Shown here piece after piece: positions 2,475 through 17,455 of a stretch of DNA of 17,534 nucleotides. How positions within the stretch are numbered: position 1 is the first letter of the stretch; every line of letters begins with the position of its first letter. The DNA is taken from positions 1 through 17,534 of the forward strand of contig JAFLDQ010000064.1 of assembly GCA_017302355.1 (NCBI GenBank), in the 5' to 3' direction. The translations under genes were made by a program, and so were the position numbers. Under the pieces are notes generated by a model, which was given only the letters and a program-made list of their open reading frames with translations, did not search any database and was not told where the DNA came from. Source of the stretch: Dechloromonas sp. GTDB taxonomy: Bacteria > Pseudomonadota > Gammaproteobacteria > Burkholderiales > Rhodocyclaceae.

Positions 2475-2660
2475 CGCCGTCGGTTACCTTTGGTCGCTGT
2501 CGGTTTCGGTTTTCAAATGAGAATTCGTCGCCCTTGCTAATTCGGAATTTTTCTTTTTCTTTTTGCCGCCGTCGGCAAATGAGAATTCATCGCCCTTGCT
2601 AATTTGAAAATTTGTGTTTTCCGCGTTTTTTGCTCGGGTAGCGCCGTCGGTCGCCGTCGG
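2475..2660. repeat. dispersed CGCCGTCGG motifs and a 29-bp direct repeat
   Basis: CGCCGTCGG is present at 2475-2483, 2567-2575, 2642-2650 and 2652-2660, and then once in each of the ten 21-bp units further right. In addition a 29-bp block starting CAAATGAGAATTC and ending CCCTTGCTAATT is repeated at 2514-2542 and 2576-2604 with one mismatch (G/A). The stretch is unlike coding DNA (T-runs, low GC between motifs). It may be iteron-like or an expanded intergenic region. Confidence 0.65.
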
Positions 2661-2725
2661 GTTTTTTCGGCTTTTGATGGTTTTTCTGGCATTTTGGTGT
2701 TTTGAGGCCGGATTGAGGGTTTAGC

Positions 2726-2935
2726 AGGCCCTCATTCGCCGTCGGCAGGCCCTCATTCGCCGTCGGCAGGCCCTCACCCGCCGTCGGCAGGCCCTCATTC
2801 GCCGTCGGTAGGCCCTCATTCGCCGTCGGCAGGCCCTCACCCGCCGTCGGCAGGCCCTCATTCGCCGTCGGCAGGCCCTCACCCGCCGTCGGCAGGCCCT
2901 CACCCGCCGTCGGCAGGCCCTCACCCGCCGTCGGC
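2726..2935. repeat. ten tandem 21-bp repeats
   Basis: Unit AGGCCCTCAYYCGCCGTCGGC (21 bp; YY is TT or CC) repeats ten times without gaps. The variable dinucleotide reads TT,TT,CC,TT,TT,CC,TT,CC,CC,CC. It always changes as a coupled pair, suggesting two unit types shuffled by unequal exchange. Unit 4 has one additional C-to-T change. Because 21 is a multiple of 3 and no unit frame contains a stop, all six frames stay open. The minus strand would encode a heptapeptide LPTA[NG]EG, in an ORF running 3147-2599. That ORF begins within the hairpin region and has no clear ribosome site, so I do not call it a gene. Each unit contains the near-palindrome GCCG-T-CGGC. Confidence 0.9.
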
Positions 2936-3007
2936 AAATCAACCCGTTTTTGATGGCTTTCCATCCGTTCAGTATGGGCGGAAAACCGCGAGAGCGGCCG
3001 GCTTGAG

Positions 3008-3304
3008 CTACATCGGGCGCCGTTTGCCCGATGTAGTGATTTAGCCGGGCGGTGCGCTTTAGCGCACCGATTTTCCTGATGTTCGTGGCATGTAGCGGTG
3101 GCCCGAAGGGCCAGAAAATCGGCCGTCCCGATTTTCAGCGATGCCACGCGGTCGGTGTTTCAGCGCTTGGCGTTTTTGACTTTTCGGCCAGCGCTGCGCG
3201 TGCTCGAATGTTTGCCCGTAGGGCAAATCCCCGCAGGGGACAAGCGGAGCGGCTCGTAGAGCCCGGAGCGCAGCACAGAGCCGCGTAGCGCGCAGCGCTG
3301 GCCG
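3008..3304. other. hairpin cluster, candidate phage replication origin/packaging region
   Basis: Perfect stems are visible one after another. CTACATCGGGC pairs with its complement (3008-3018/3026-3036, 11 bp). GGTGCGC-TTTA-GCGCACC spans 3051-3068. CCGATTTTC (3067-3075) pairs with GAAAATCGG (3114-3122), enclosing TGGCCC-GAA-GGGCCA (3099-3113). GTGGCAT (3085-3091) can pair with ATGCCAC (3141-3147). CGGCCAGCGCTGCGCG (3185-3200) pairs perfectly with 3289-3304, enclosing TTTGCCC-GTA-GGGCAAA (3211-3227), TCCCC-GCA-GGGGA (3228-3240) and GGCTC-GTA-GAGCC (3251-3263). Filamentous phage origins and packaging signals consist of such adjoining hairpins. The origin role is inferred from this and from the position at the end of the element. 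Confidence 0.5.
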
Positions 3305-12328: not shown

Positions 12329-12460
12329 TCAACGGCTTCGAGGAGTCGTTGTTTCGTCTGAATCGGGTGTGGCAGTGCAGAAGCGCTTTACCGTCAGGTC
12401 ATTTCGTCGGTCGGAAGCAGCGGCACGAATAGCGGGGTAGGTAGGATTCAGGGTTGCCAT
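12329..12460 (-). CDS. 43-aa ORF, possibly the 5' remnant of a transfer-element gene
   Basis: ATG at 12460 follows a good GAGGTG (4 nt spacing). It encodes MATLNPTYPAIRAAASDRRN and ends 23 codons later with a Thr-rich tail, TGA at 12331-12329. The strong ribosome site and the ordered N-terminus followed by low-complexity residues suggest a gene truncated where the element meets the chromosome. Not recognised. Confidence 0.4.
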   Translation of the reverse strand: MATLNPTYPAIRAAASDRRNDLTVKRFCTATPDSDETTTPRSR

Positions 12461-12522
12461 GATTCACCTCTCTAACAGGTGGGTTGTGGAAGTGTCGGCC
12501 GGCCCCACGCCGGCCGGCGCGC

Positions 12523-12801
12523 TTATCGGCTGCCGGTGCCGTAGAAACCGGCGGCCTCGGCCAACGGCGTGCTTCTTGCGCCGCCGCTGCATCTGCTGGC
12601 ATTGCCGCTCACCTTGACCGCCGGCCTGGCGGCTTCGATAGCGGTCTGGGCAGGGCGACTCACGAAGGCGGCGACTTCCGCCTCGTGGCCGGCATCGGTC
12701 GATTGATCGCCGACTGGCTCAAACTCCACCGCATGCGCCTGGCGCTGCTCGGCAGCGGCAACGGCAACGTCCAGGCAGTCGAAAAATCCTCTCGGCGTCA
12801 T
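12523..12801 (-). CDS. 92-aa protein downstream of trbL with TrbL-tail-like motifs
   Basis: A perfect AGGAGGT (minus strand, 12814-12808) is placed 7 nt before the ATG at 12801; an ATG at 12807 is too close to it but would overlap the reconstructed trbL stop. The protein begins MTPRGFFDCLDVAVAAAEQR. Two motifs resemble the TrbL C-terminal region: EVAAFVSR (TrbL EVAAFAS, plus R once restored) and the last residues STPLAEAAGFYGTGS (TrbL STPLGQAAGFYSSGS, 11 of 15 identical). Function unknown. The similarity suggests a shared binding motif or origin by partial duplication. Confidence 0.6.
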   Translation of the reverse strand: MTPRGFFDCLDVAVAAAEQRQAHAVEFEPVGDQSTDAGHEAEVAAFVSRPAQTAIEAARPAVKVSGNASRCSGGARSTPLAEAAGFYGTGSR

Positions 12802-12822
12802 CGTCATACCTCCTTGTCGCGG

Positions 12823-13655
12823 TTGGGCGTGATGCTGGTTTTCTGCGTGGCGTTGCTCATGCTGGTCAATCGTATGCCCCCGCTTGTCGCCGGCATCATC
12901 ACCGGCTCGGGCATCGGTGGCGCTGGCGGCATTGGCAACTTCGGTGCAGGTGCCGCCATCGGTGCGGCTATGGGCGCGGCGAGTATGGCTGCCGGAGCTG
13001 CAAGCGTGGCTGGTGCGGCCGCGATGGGCGGTGCAGCCTCGGCCGCCGGCGGCATGTCGGCGATCAAGGCAGCGTTCGAGAAAGCTGGGTCTAGCGCCGG
13101 TGGCGAGTCGGGCGGAATGCCCATGCTTGGTGGTGGTGCTGGCGGTGATTCCGATGCTGGATCGTTCGCGCAGGCGGCGGGCGTTGGTGGCGGCGGTTCC
13201 AGTGCTGGAACAAGTACGCCACTCGGCCAAGCGGCCGGCTTCTACAGCTCGGGAAGCTCCAGCAGTTCGGGCAGCAGCGGCCAGAGCAAGGTGGCACAGC
13301 AGGCCGGCCCCGCCGGCAGCTCGGGCAGCGGTTCCAGCTCGAAGGCCAGCGAAAGCGGCGACGCTGGCGGCCAAACCGGCCAAGCCGGCCAGGGGGCGGG
13401 AAGTCTTCTCGCGGCGACGGCTGCGAACTTGGCGAAAGGCATTGGCGACGTTGCGAAGGCCAAGGCGGCCAGCATCCGCGACGCCGCTGCCGAACGCATT
13501 GCCAACACCACTGGCGGGAAGATCGCCGCCGCGATCCGGGCGAGCAGCCATGCAGACCAGGCGGCCGAGGATGTGCCCAGCTTCGGCGGCAACAGCCTGG
13601 CAGGGGCCGATTCGGCCGCTGCTGATCCTGATGATGAAGTCGCTGCGTTCGCCAG
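12823..13655 (+). pseudogene. trbL: 3' part of trbL, inverted relative to its 5' part
   Basis: The plus frame starting at 12823 reads LGVMLVFCVALLMLVN, PPLVAGIITGSGIGGAGGIG, then the Gly/Ala/Ser-rich tail (AGAAMGAAS-type repeats, QAAGFYSSGSSSSSG) ending DPDDEVAAFAS. This is the classical C-terminal half of P-type TrbL, in frame with itself but on the wrong strand. The 5' half lies on the minus strand at 14405-13656. In the current orientation this half has no obvious start or ribosome site; the plus frame is open further left to 12484 but only through antisense of the 92-aa gene. The segment is 833 bp long. Confidence 0.85.
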
Positions 13656-14405
13656 CTCTTCAAAGTTCAGGGTGCCGGTGTTCATCCTGGCATAGAAGCT
13701 GGAAAGCAGGTCGTTCCCGATGCCAACCAGGAGCACCATCGTCATGATCTGCACGGCCACGCCCAGCACGGTCTTGTAGTAGTTGATCGCCATGTCGGAT
13801 GTCCAACGCGAGCCGCCGAAGCCGAGAAAGAAGATGCCGGCGTACATCAGCAGCCAGCCCGACACGAGCAACAGCAACATGTTTATGGCGACGACAGCCA
13901 GCAGGATCAGGATGCCGAGGCTCAATGCCACACCGATGAAACTATCCACGGGCGACCAGATCGACGAGTTGCTGAATGCCTGCTTCAAGATCATGAAGCC
14001 AATATCCACGATGCCCGAGGGTGTCACCGATGCCACCCCGGACGCCTGCTCACCGATCCGGGCCAGTGACTGGATGATCGAGTTGGCGAAGGTCGGGCCA
14101 TAGCGCAACAGCCAAAGGAAGAAGCCGAAGAACAGGATGAACCTGATGAACTCGGCGAAGAACTCGCCAATGTCGGCCTTGCGCAGCGCCATGAAGCCGA
14201 AGGTGAAAACCAGCGAGATCGTGCCCAGCGTCCAGAACAGGAACATCGCGGCATTCATCACCACCGTCTGCCAGGACGTGGCCCGCGTGGCGAACTCCGT
14301 CACCACCTGGTCAAGCATCCCCTGGTTGGTGAGCTGGGCCGATGCGGCGGTGGAGTAGAACGCGATGGCGACGCCGATCAGCGCCGCCTTGGACAGTGCT
14401 TTCAT
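13242..14405 (-). pseudogene. trbL: 5' part of trbL fused to antisense sequence
   Basis: Residues 1-250 are normal TrbL, the polytopic inner-membrane component of the P-type conjugative type IV secretion channel (VirB6 equivalent). They comprise a signal-like start MKALSKAALIGVAIAFYSTA, about five membrane segments (e.g. FLFWTLGTISLVFTFGFMAL, LGILILLAVVAINMLLLLVS, AVQIMTMVLLVGIG) and FYARMNTGTLNFEE. At 13656|13655 the frame enters the inverted segment. It stays open for 137 further Ala/Pro/Leu-rich codons (ANAATSSSGSAAAE...) that are antisense to the real C-terminus, stopping at 13242. The start overlaps the trbK stop as ATGA. The product is 387 aa instead of ~533 and probably non-functional. 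Confidence 0.85.
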
Positions 14406-14680
14406 GGCTTCGCCTCCTTCTGGTCTTTCGGGTCGGCCAGTTCGAGCCAGTTCATGGGCTTCTCGGTCGGCGCGATGCCGCCGCTGGCCGGCGACCGGCG
14501 CGAGCACAGCCCGGCGAATTTTTCGCGCGTGGCCCTGTCCTCGATCTTCTTGATCGCCTCGATCTGGCAATTGGTGTCATTGACCTCGGGCATGGGTGGG
14601 ATGGCCGGCTTGTTGTCGCAACCAGCCACCACCACCACCACCACCACCACGAGGCCGGTAAGCAGCATCGTTTTCTTCAT
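14402..14680 (-). CDS. trbK: TrbK-family entry-exclusion lipoprotein
   Basis: 92 aa. Lipoprotein signal MKKTMLLTGLVVVVVVVVAG with lipobox VVAGC, then a ~70-residue periplasmic part containing CQIEAIKKIEDRATREKFAGLC with two Cys (as segments) and a C-terminus rich in Lys/Glu. Size, lipobox and location between trbJ and trbL match TrbK, which blocks redundant entry of related plasmids. The eight-valine stretch comes from a (CCA)8 run on the plus strand (14626-14650), whose length changes would stay in frame. 15 nt separate it from trbJ. Confidence 0.8.
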   Translation of the reverse strand: MKKTMLLTGLVVVVVVVVAGCDNKPAIPPMPEVNDTNCQIEAIKKIEDRATREKFAGLCSRRSPASGGIAPTEKPMNWLELADPKDQKEAKP

Positions 14681-14695
14681 GGTGCAGGGCCTCCG

Positions 14696-15481
14696 TCAGC
14701 GGGTCAGTTCGGGCCAGTTTCTCGGGTTGGCCGTGCGCTCGATCCTGGACTCCCCGGAAGTCGCGCCGGCGGCCTGCTGTTGCGCCTCAAGGTCGGCCTG
14801 CGCCTGCATCTTGGCCGTCGCGGCGTTCTGCTGCGCGATCAGGAGGCCACGGAGTTGCAGGAGCTGGTTTGCCTGGTTGGCGGCGAGCTGGTTGGCGAAG
14901 CCGATGGCTTGCATCTGGCCGGTCGCACCCTGTGCGGCGGACTGGAGCCGTTCGAGCTGGCGAGCGTCAGCGGTCAAGTTGCGCTGCTGTTGCTCAAGGC
15001 CCTTGAAAAGCGCGTCGTTCGCTTTCTTCTGGCTCTCGCTCGCCAGGCTGCGGTTTTGCTCCATCGCGGCGCGCTCTGCATCCGAGCACCCGGCCGCCGA
15101 GAAGCAAGGCGAACCACGGTAGTAGGCCACGTCCTGGAACTTGCCCAGGTACGCATCGACGCTGCCGAGCTGATTCCTGTAGTAGTTCAGTGTGTCGGTG
15201 GCGGCCATCAACCCGTTGATGGTGGACTGCGCCTGATCCCAGATGTAGGCCGCCGGGGCCATCGTGTTTTGCAGCATGTTCTCGTACTGCTGCAATTGGG
15301 TCTGGTACTGCTCGATCTGCTTGAGCGTCTGCGCCACCGACTCGATGGCCGTCATGACGTTCTGAATCAGGTTGCCGCCGTCGATGACGGGGATGCCGGC
15401 CTGCGCGGGCGTGATGATGATGCTGCCGGCCAGAGCGGCGGCGAGCGCGGTTTTAGCCGCTAAGAAACGGACGTGCTTCAT
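14696..15481 (-). CDS. trbJ: conjugal transfer protein TrbJ
   Basis: 261 aa. VirB5-like periplasmic pilus/mating-pair component. Signal peptide MKHVRFLAAKTALAAALAGS ending near TPAQA; then VIDGGNLIQNVMTAIESVAQ, a Gln-rich helical region (IEQYQTQLQQYENMLQN), CFSAAGCSDAE with two Cys, and a long Gln/Ala coiled coil (ANQLAANQANQLLQLRGLL). The ATG at 15481 follows GGAG with good spacing and gives the signal peptide; an upstream in-frame start at 15526 is not used. Intact. Confidence 0.9.
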   Translation of the reverse strand: MKHVRFLAAKTALAAALAGSIIITPAQAGIPVIDGGNLIQNVMTAIESVAQTLKQIEQYQTQLQQYENMLQNTMAPAAYIWDQAQSTINGLMAATDTLNYYRNQLGSVDAYLGKFQDVAYYRGSPCFSAAGCSDAERAAMEQNRSLASESQKKANDALFKGLEQQQRNLTADARQLERLQSAAQGATGQMQAIGFANQLAANQANQLLQLRGLLIAQQNAATAKMQAQADLEAQQQAAGATSGESRIERTANPRNWPELTR

Positions 15482-15651
15482 GGTCGCAATCTCCATTCGA
15501 TGAAAGAAAGGCAATGCCTTGACCAAGCTCGCGCTTGCTCACGGCAAGGTTTCATCGAAGAGCTTCGCCACTAGCTAATCGGTATCGCCCTTGGCACTGA
15601 GGCCCGGACTTCGGTGATTCTGTTCTTGGCCCTTACGGGGTGTCCCTGGCC
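15482..15651. promoter_or_regulatory. hairpin-rich leader upstream of trbJ
   Basis: Between the vapC stop and trbJ, TTCGATGAAA (15496-15505) and TTTCATCGAA (15550-15559) form a perfect 10-bp inverted repeat. It encloses AAGGCA-A-TGCCTT (15508-15520) and CAAGC-TCGC-GCTTG (15524-15537). The trbE end expected here in a complete cluster is missing. The structures may control trbJKL expression, but no clear promoter is seen. Confidence 0.4.
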
Positions 15652-16071
15652 CTATACGTCCTTCCAAGGGTTGATAACAGTCACACCGGCCGCTTCATAG
15701 GGCGATGTGTCGCGTGATGCCACGATGAAGCCCCGCGATGCTGCAACGGCCGCGATGTAGCCGTCTGGCGTCGGGAAGCCACGCCCGCCGTTCTTGGCCA
15801 TCACGGCTAGGTCGGCGTAGTGGCGCGCTGCATCCGTGTCGAACGGCAGCACCCGATCTTTGAACAGCTCCAGCAGTTCGTTCAGGGCGCGGTCGAGCAT
15901 GTTCTTGCGCTTGCCTGCCGGAAGCGCCCGGATGCCAAACAACGACTCGGCCAGCGTGACGCTCGACAGATACAAGGTTTCCGCCGCCTGGTCGTTCAGC
16001 CAGGCCCTCACGGCCGCGTCTGGCTCTGGCTTCATCGCCTCGGAAACGACGTTGGTATCCAGGACGATCAT
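15652..16071 (-). CDS. PIN-domain toxin (VapC/FitB family)
   Basis: 139 aa. PIN-domain ribonuclease with the acidic residues D5 (MIVLDTN), E42 (SVTLAESLFGIRAL), D80 (PFDTDAARHYADL) and D103 (TPDGYIAAVA). The pattern VVSEAMKPEPDAAVRAWL and LPAGKRK are typical of the FitB subgroup. It would cleave RNA when not bound by the antitoxin. The start immediately follows the antitoxin stop (TGAATG). Placed upstream of trbJ, where a transfer gene would be expected; it could stabilise the element. Confidence 0.92.
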   Translation of the reverse strand: MIVLDTNVVSEAMKPEPDAAVRAWLNDQAAETLYLSSVTLAESLFGIRALPAGKRKNMLDRALNELLELFKDRVLPFDTDAARHYADLAVMAKNGGRGFPTPDGYIAAVAASRGFIVASRDTSPYEAAGVTVINPWKDV

Positions 16072-16326
16072 TCAGTCGAAGCTCAACGGTTTGGCCGGTG
16101 TCTTGTCGCGCACGCTCTCGAAGACGGCGAAATCCTCATTGGTCAGCCCGATCTTGCGGCCGATGGCGGCTAAGGCTTCACCCACACGCACGCGCTTCTC
16201 CGGCTTGACCACGGCCGCCAGAATCTCGCGCACCTCCGCTTCCGTGCTGCGGCCATGTTGGGCCGCCCGCACGCGCAAAGCGCGATGCACGTCATCCGGC
16301 ACATTCCTTACAGTCAAGATTGCCAT
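16072..16326 (-). CDS. antitoxin (FitA-like, ribbon-helix-helix)
   Basis: 84 aa. MAILTVRNVPDDVHRALRVRAAQHGRSTEAEVREIL is the Arc/FitA-type ribbon-helix-helix N-terminus (given as the usual motif order: VRNVPDD, HRALRVRAAQHGRS, EAEVREIL). A C-terminal toxin-binding tail ends KTPAKPLSFD. Pairs with the adjoining PIN toxin and should autoregulate from the inverted repeat at 16345-16361. Confidence 0.9.
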   Translation of the reverse strand: MAILTVRNVPDDVHRALRVRAAQHGRSTEAEVREILAAVVKPEKRVRVGEALAAIGRKIGLTNEDFAVFESVRDKTPAKPLSFD

Positions 16327-16344
16327 GATTCAAAACCTATCATC

Positions 16345-16361
16345 TGCTGTCTATGACAGCA
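16345..16361. promoter_or_regulatory. toxin-antitoxin operator
   Basis: TGCTGTC-TAT-GACAGCA is a perfect 7-bp inverted repeat with a 3-nt centre, 18 bp upstream of the antitoxin start. It is a suitable binding site for the ribbon-helix-helix antitoxin; an AT-rich stretch next to it (AATTATCGATAAA) could hold the promoter. Confidence 0.6.
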
Positions 16362-16393
16362 ATTATCGATAAATGCAGTCACCAGCGCAAGCG

Positions 16394-16585
16394 TCAAGCT
16401 CCACGTCCCTTCCTGCCCTGGCGTCTCGCCCTCTTGGCTTCCATCTGCGCCCGTATCCGGGCCTCGCGTTGCTCCAGCTCGGACGGTTCCGACTTCTGGA
16501 CCCTGGCCGGCGTCGGGGCCGAGGTGGTCGGCACTTGCGCGGGCCGCTGGGCCTCGCCCTCGATGTGCAGGCCTACTTGACACAT
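16394..16585 (-). CDS. possible 63-aa ORF or gene 3' end, unknown
   Basis: MCQVGLHIEGEAQRPAQVPT opens the short frame, which ends in a charged helix (ELEQREARIRAQMEAKRARR) and a basic tail QGRKGRGA. The style is that of the C-terminus of a plasmid DNA-processing protein, but no family is recognised. The frame extends upstream to 16777 through an AT-richer region that looks non-coding. Low support. Confidence 0.3.
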   Translation of the reverse strand: MCQVGLHIEGEAQRPAQVPTTSAPTPARVQKSEPSELEQREARIRAQMEAKRARRQGRKGRGA

Positions 16586-16948
16586 CCTGCCCGCGTCACA
16601 GCCGCGTTTTCTGCGCGTATGCTGGTTGGAATCTGTCGCTATTCCGTCGCTATTTATCTGCGATTGCTCCGCAATCGCTGCACAATCGGCAGAATCGCGC
16701 GGTAATCGTGAAAAATCGCTGTGGAATCGCGATAAGAACGAACTTCCCAACCGATTTCCTAGCGCTTTCCACCGCACGCAAGCAAAGCTTGGCGCGGGCT
16801 ATCGCTGGCTCTGGATTGATTCGTCGTCATCGGCCACGATACGGCCGTGGTCACTACACCACGATAGGAGCGCCGGTTTGAAGAAACCCTCGTGTGGATC
16901 GATGACGGGCGGGAAAAACGCTGACTTGCTTCGCCCACAAACGCCTTA
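16586..16948. other. gene-free stretch with phased AATCG motifs
   Basis: AATCG occurs at 16673, 16684, 16693, 16704, 16714 and 16725 (steps 11, 9, 11, 10 and 11). It is preceded by TCGCTATT at 16636 and 16647 (11-bp step) and a perfect hairpin GCGATTGC-TCC-GCAATCGC (16660-16678, approximate ends). I see no credible gene from 16730 to 16948. Confidence 0.6.
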
Positions 16949-17341
16949 CTAACTCAGATCAACGAGCGGGACGAGGCCAAACTTGCCGGGCGCCAGGGCC
17001 GCGGAGCATCCGCTCCCGCCGTCGACCACTCGGATGTGGATCGCACCAGCACCAATAACGAGTACCTCGCGACTGCCATTGAATCGAATTTTCTCCCCGC
17101 GTGGCTCCCCGAATGCCATCAAACCCATTCCTGCCTGGCAGCTACACCCTGGCGAGCAAGCCAATGTGTATGTTGCCCACAAGAACACGTAGTCCTCGAA
17201 CCAGGTCCACTCGGCTGAGATTGCCTTCTTCACCCAGCCAGGAGCGGCACCTGCGGCGATAGGAAGGAACTGAACCGTAGCTGCAATTGCCAGCGCACAA
17301 AGCCGGCGTCCGGTCCAACCGTTCCGTTGAGATATCTGCAT
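16949..17341 (-). CDS. small secreted protein of unknown function
   Basis: 130 aa from the ATG at 17341, preceded by AGGGG; an earlier start at 17386 lacks one. Signal peptide: RNGWTGRRLCALAIAATVQF then LPIAAGAAPGW, cleavage likely after AGA. The mature part contains VKKAISAEWTWFEDYVFLWA, four Cys (LACSPGCSC and GSGC) and a beta-looking stretch EVLVIGAGAIHIRVVDGG. Not recognised. Its association with the transfer remnant is only positional. Confidence 0.6.
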   Translation of the reverse strand: MQISQRNGWTGRRLCALAIAATVQFLPIAAGAAPGWVKKAISAEWTWFEDYVFLWATYTLACSPGCSCQAGMGLMAFGEPRGEKIRFNGSREVLVIGAGAIHIRVVDGGSGCSAALAPGKFGLVPLVDLS

Positions 17342-17455
17342 ATGAACCCCTGGAGGACAAGCAACATAGAAATTTCGGCATGCCATATATGTAGAGTGTG
17401 GGTACCGGGAGCTAAAGTCAAATCTGGTGTATGGGATGCGTGTGGCATTGGTTGA

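Follow-up and report, generated by a model that had tools for sequence, protein, structure and literature searches.

The trbL gene that lies in the 17,534-nucleotide stretch of DNA analysed here (the window) raises the question of whether a gene that can be restored exactly by turning one internal segment around is governed by a reversible switch, or whether it was broken once and for all. An earlier note on this DNA had left both readings standing. DNA alignment to the intact relative L011 resolves the locus into three abutting pieces, 12440-12826 on the minus strand, 12824-13654 on the plus strand and 13652-16572 on the minus strand, and the same inversion borders are obtained against L001, L007, L013 and L010, the last piece being shorter in these four. 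In all of these alignments neighbouring pieces share 3 bp at each border (TGG, with CCA as its complement) and thus no base has been lost, which bears out the two central claims of the earlier note, namely that a flush inversion divides trbL and that the event neither gained nor lost a base. The possibility, also raised there, that the plus-strand half belongs to a separate second copy of trbL is not borne out, as in the relatives a single uninterrupted gene accounts for the two halves. The inversion, which is flush and inherited, is very probably real.

Judged from the three-piece alignment and the junction contexts, the inverted segment, which carries the C-terminal part of trbL with its sense on the plus strand, covers 12824-13654. 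By homology its borders fall at 12823/12824 and 13654/13655, giving 831 bp, or 825-831 bp when the 3-bp ambiguity (TGG at 12824-12826, CCA at 13652-13654) is taken into account. The borders proposed previously (12823-13655, 833 bp) preserve the reading frame, but each end lies one base too far out. Likewise, the codons that were re-joined on that basis do form an open frame, but they read TTG and AGC (Ser for Asn) where the relatives have CTG and AAC; the first junction is GAG CTG GGC in all 12 relatives compared, and the second, reached in nine of the 12, is GCC AAC in eight and GCT AAC in one. Codons 1-250 do lie on the minus strand (13656-14405), as had been proposed; they encode the TrbL/VirB6 domain (PF04610, E 3.7e-35) and match TIGR02783 TrbL_P with 210.8 bits. 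The C-terminal part (12823-13694, plus strand) matches positions 231-294 of the same profile with 16.8 bits, far under the cut-off of 128.85, yet it is clear by DNA alignment. According to the junction comparison, the last trbL codons were left on the minus strand (12804-12823), where the stop overlaps the next ATG as noted before, and the small ORF at that overlap (12523-12807, minus strand, 94 aa) is open in the window. This ORF has no family match in the profile scan; L079 and L080 encode a hypothetical protein in the corresponding position. Six of the seven relatives match the ORF along all of its 94 residues, and L012 gives no match.

Such flush borders would also fit a short piece that the assembler had inserted the wrong way round, and a mis-assembly had indeed been allowed for from the beginning. 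However, the fused ORF that the inversion makes (13242-14405, minus strand; 387 aa, consisting of TrbL residues 1-250 and an antisense tail) is identical to the protein P0001, recorded in 11 contigs of which the longest measures 2,940,286 bases, and P0002, from a twelfth contig of 20,310 bases, differs from it at residue 285. Although these 12 contigs may derive from a small number of samples, the recurrence of the fused ORF together with its one-residue variant makes a single mis-assembly unlikely, and an assembler would presumably have little cause to flip a segment that is not framed by long inverted repeats. We thus regard an artefact as distinctly improbable.

What could the cell still make of this gene? 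At most, it could produce a truncated TrbL of 250 residues followed by the antisense tail. This product would lack both the subsequent hydrophobic stretch (judged by eye) and the Gly/Ala/Ser-rich tail, on account of which the mating-channel subunit TrbL is most likely inactive. The same is suggested by the distantly related plasmid pKPC_UVA01, in which, according to PMC8923210, trbJ and trbL are required for transfer and trbK, an exclusion gene, is dispensable; by this analogy, too, a TrbL cut after residue 250 would most likely not function. Neither trbL half contains a stop codon, and dN/dS between the window and seven relatives amounts to 0.10-0.22 for the N piece and 0.23-0.42 for the C piece, compared with 0.05-0.28 and 0.17-0.53, respectively, for pairs of relatives, a set that includes L020 with its early stop and a C piece of 65 codons only. 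Open halves with such values imply that the break is recent relative to the divergence from the relatives. Some other trbL copies (L020 from 5001, P0003 and P0079) look broken as well, by an early stop or an apparent frameshift and not by inversion. P0003 had been considered as a second inverted protein and was dropped because its sequence crosses the junction in the normal way, with what looks like a frameshift beyond it.

The broken gene sits in a degraded element of the IncP-island type. The stretch from 12440 onwards is related to IncP-type mobilizable elements. Encoded for the most part on the minus strand, it comprises the traI 3' end, a VapBC-type pair, trbJ, trbK, trbL, the small ORF and the start of a toxin gene. 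As in IncP islands, trbJ, trbK and trbL follow one another in order, with trbL broken; both trbJ (14696-15490, minus strand; NF010452, 415.1 bits, cut-off 286) and trbK, which encodes the entry exclusion lipoprotein (14402-14680, minus strand; TIGR04359, 79.1 bits, cut-off 23), are open. The MobP relaxase gene traI, which in such islands is accompanied by traJ and traK, is represented by its 3' end only (16386-16573, minus strand), as seen in alignments to L079 and L080, where the counterpart is annotated as traI and TrbI, respectively; the remainder of traI and traJ is absent here, and none of the 30 window ORFs scanned matches traJ or traK. An oriT-like stretch (16570-16785, plus strand) with a nic-like CATCCTGCC at 16583 is fused to this remnant, the two overlapping by 3-4 bases at 16570-16573. 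Positions 16570-16592 match the interval that separates traJ from traK in L079 and L080, and the entire 16570-16785 matches L014 and L078 at 88-89%; the position of oriT between traJ and traK and the nic motif we take to be those of RP4. At the opposite end, homology to the relatives reaches its left limit with the 5' end of the toxin gene associated with PtaRNA1 (12440-12462, minus strand, by alignment), breaking off after ~7 codons, and the PtaRNA1 antisense RNA lies at 12454-12524 on the plus strand (Rfam RF01811, 88 bits, gathering score 47). The PIN-domain (VapC-like) toxin (15652-16071, minus strand; PF01850) and the FitA-like antitoxin (16072-16326, minus strand; PF22513) form a toxin-antitoxin pair shared with L011 and L012; the PIN toxin is absent from the other five of the seven relatives, and vapB shows zero amino-acid changes against the two relatives having it. 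No integrase domain was found in the 30 ORFs, and neither an attachment site nor a tRNA gene in the window, which may not span the whole element.

From its sequence, the host chromosome looks Azonexus/Dechloromonas-like: relatives of HolB at ~80% identity come from Azonexus and Dechloromonas (closest relative 98%), and 3478 to ~10,700 is collinear with two relatives at 78%, after which DnaJ-type genes follow. Elsewhere in the window there is a tandem array at 2724-2936 (21-bp unit, ~10 copies) inside an ORF (2599-3147, minus strand) encoding LPTAGEG/LPTANEG repeats. Phage-like pieces occupy 66-1910, comprising a fragment of a Mu-like head maturation protease (66-593), a phage-type regulator (1089-1463) and a single-strand DNA binding protein (1518-1910), and the ORF at 16949-17386 (145 aa) has no Pfam, NCBIfam or PHROGs match.

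Could the segment nevertheless turn back and forth, such that reversible site-specific inversion, as in an intragenic inverton, would switch trbL and hence DNA transfer on and off? Intragenic inversions are reportedly the subject of a paper by Chanin et al., which is listed in a table and among the references of PMC11868660. The present inversion resembles invertons and intragenic inversions in that it lies inside a reading frame and splits it; furthermore, it is flush and in frame, both halves are open and conserved, and the low dN/dS of an otherwise uneroded trbL would also suit its use in the other orientation. Unlike in invertons, however, no inverted repeats frame the segment beyond the 3-bp TGG/CCA match, and random pairs match by at least 3 bp with a probability of 0.062 (200,000 draws in L011, with segments of 700-780 bp that are slightly shorter than the real one). 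The longest word common to the 40-bp surroundings of both borders in L011 has a length of 5, and no long inverted pair lies at the borders among the 25 listed of 112 pairs, in keeping with the earlier statement that the ends carry no long inverted repeats. The nearby invertase that was to be looked for did not emerge either, since Pfam scans of 30 selected window ORFs (main chromosomal genes included; 81 ORFs were called mechanically) returned no recombinase domain. Only one orientation has been seen: among 301 proteins compared, the window's trbL allele occurs in its inverted form only, the inverted junction being confined to P0001 and P0002. The nearest proteins whose junction is normal deviate from it at three or more of the first 250 residues, the closest being P0004 with 247 residues shared. 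Finally, most of the relaxase gene is gone, and the decayed state of the element, with its traI-oriT fusion and cut toxin gene, favours a one-time illegitimate event. Of the two readings left standing at the outset, it is therefore the one-off event that gains; a reversible switch is not supported, and we consider it very unlikely. It should be added that in Salmonella, according to PMC3411829, spontaneous inversions were verified only with longer junction matches (deduced cut-off at least 12 bp) among candidates preselected for long microhomology, so that no support for a 3-bp route comes from that study.

A check of related genomes for the same breakpoints, as had been advised, covered 110 loci. 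The N piece is matched in 101 of them and the C piece also in 68, with the un-inverted arrangement in 68 out of 68 and the downstream flank un-inverted in 32 out of 32, though these counts are not independent because several of the loci represent the same place or come from sister strains. The 19-base inverted junction word occurs in none of the 110 loci and the 17-base intact word in 26. At the level of the family, matches at E 1e-3 were obtained for 93 of 395 genomes, in many cases through short weak stretches only; for 18 genomes the listed matches include the segment as well as the N part, and the inverted arrangement is found in none of these. In the nearest genus, a single genome out of 76 gives matches at E 1e-10, all of them outside the segment. 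None of 399 genomes of the order contains the 19-base inverted junction in exact form, a result of little weight given that most of them are probably without the element. Among matching plasmid records, none covers at least 80% of the right (0 of 213) or the left (0 of 141) inverted junction. IMG/VR contains no stretch with the 24-base inverted junction, and of 53 stretches there that fitted a pattern for TrbL relatives none was confirmed; phage records gave no match. The 120 proteins listed out of 664 do not include the plus-strand ORF, nor do the 120 listed out of 2868 hits include the window's trbL allele in intact form, and no account of an invertible trbL affecting conjugation was found in an open-licence library of papers.

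It might also be envisaged that the inversion represents a selected, perhaps even reversible off-state in which the channel subunit TrbL is disabled, trbJ-trbK are kept and the captured island guards its host against IncP-like plasmids, which we deem highly improbable. Selected inactivation as such, with trbJ-trbK kept for exclusion of IncP-like plasmids and the channel subunit TrbL broken, would agree with trbK and trbJ being open at dN/dS values of 0.16-0.39 and 0.06-0.22, respectively, against seven relatives, and with the division of labour in pKPC_UVA01, but recent decay alone can give low dN/dS and the pKPC_UVA01 genes are merely distant relatives, making this reading extremely unlikely.

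We therefore return to the one-time event and hold it highly likely that trbL, located in a decayed IncP-island-type island of an Azonexus/Dechloromonas-like chromosome, became a pseudogene through one illegitimate inversion of 831 bp, for which the 3-bp inverted microhomology would at most have been of help; the inverted allele would afterwards have been inherited, and trbJ and trbK are still open. The loss of TrbL function, the illegitimate route and the lack of flipping back are what we infer. Elements with trbJ, trbK and trbL and without the other channel genes have their precedents in GIsul2 and the IncP island of Burkholderia glumae, as reviewed in PMC5704250. Compared by these descriptions, the element shares with both the trbJ-trbK-trbL group and with the IncP island the traces of traI and oriT; it differs from them in being without most of traI and traJ and in having trbL inverted. 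Small mobilizable plasmids (p3-T1 of Acidovorax sp. T1 and CP014066.2 of Achromobacter) carry traK, traJ, traI, trbJ, trbK, trbL and a ptaRNA1-family toxin. The gene order is shared with the window, at ~89% identity over 44% of the 5435-base query, but these plasmids have traI, traJ, trbL and the toxin gene annotated in full, whereas the window holds a remnant.

Taken together, the inversion is ordinary decay of a mobile island and not a demonstrated switch, and it illustrates cleanly how flush inversion can cost such a decaying island one of its transfer genes. Were it true that the segment flips, it would amount to an unusual control of conjugation, for which the present findings offer no support. 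The locus thus calls for caution: an inversion that can be restored exactly is not necessarily a switch.
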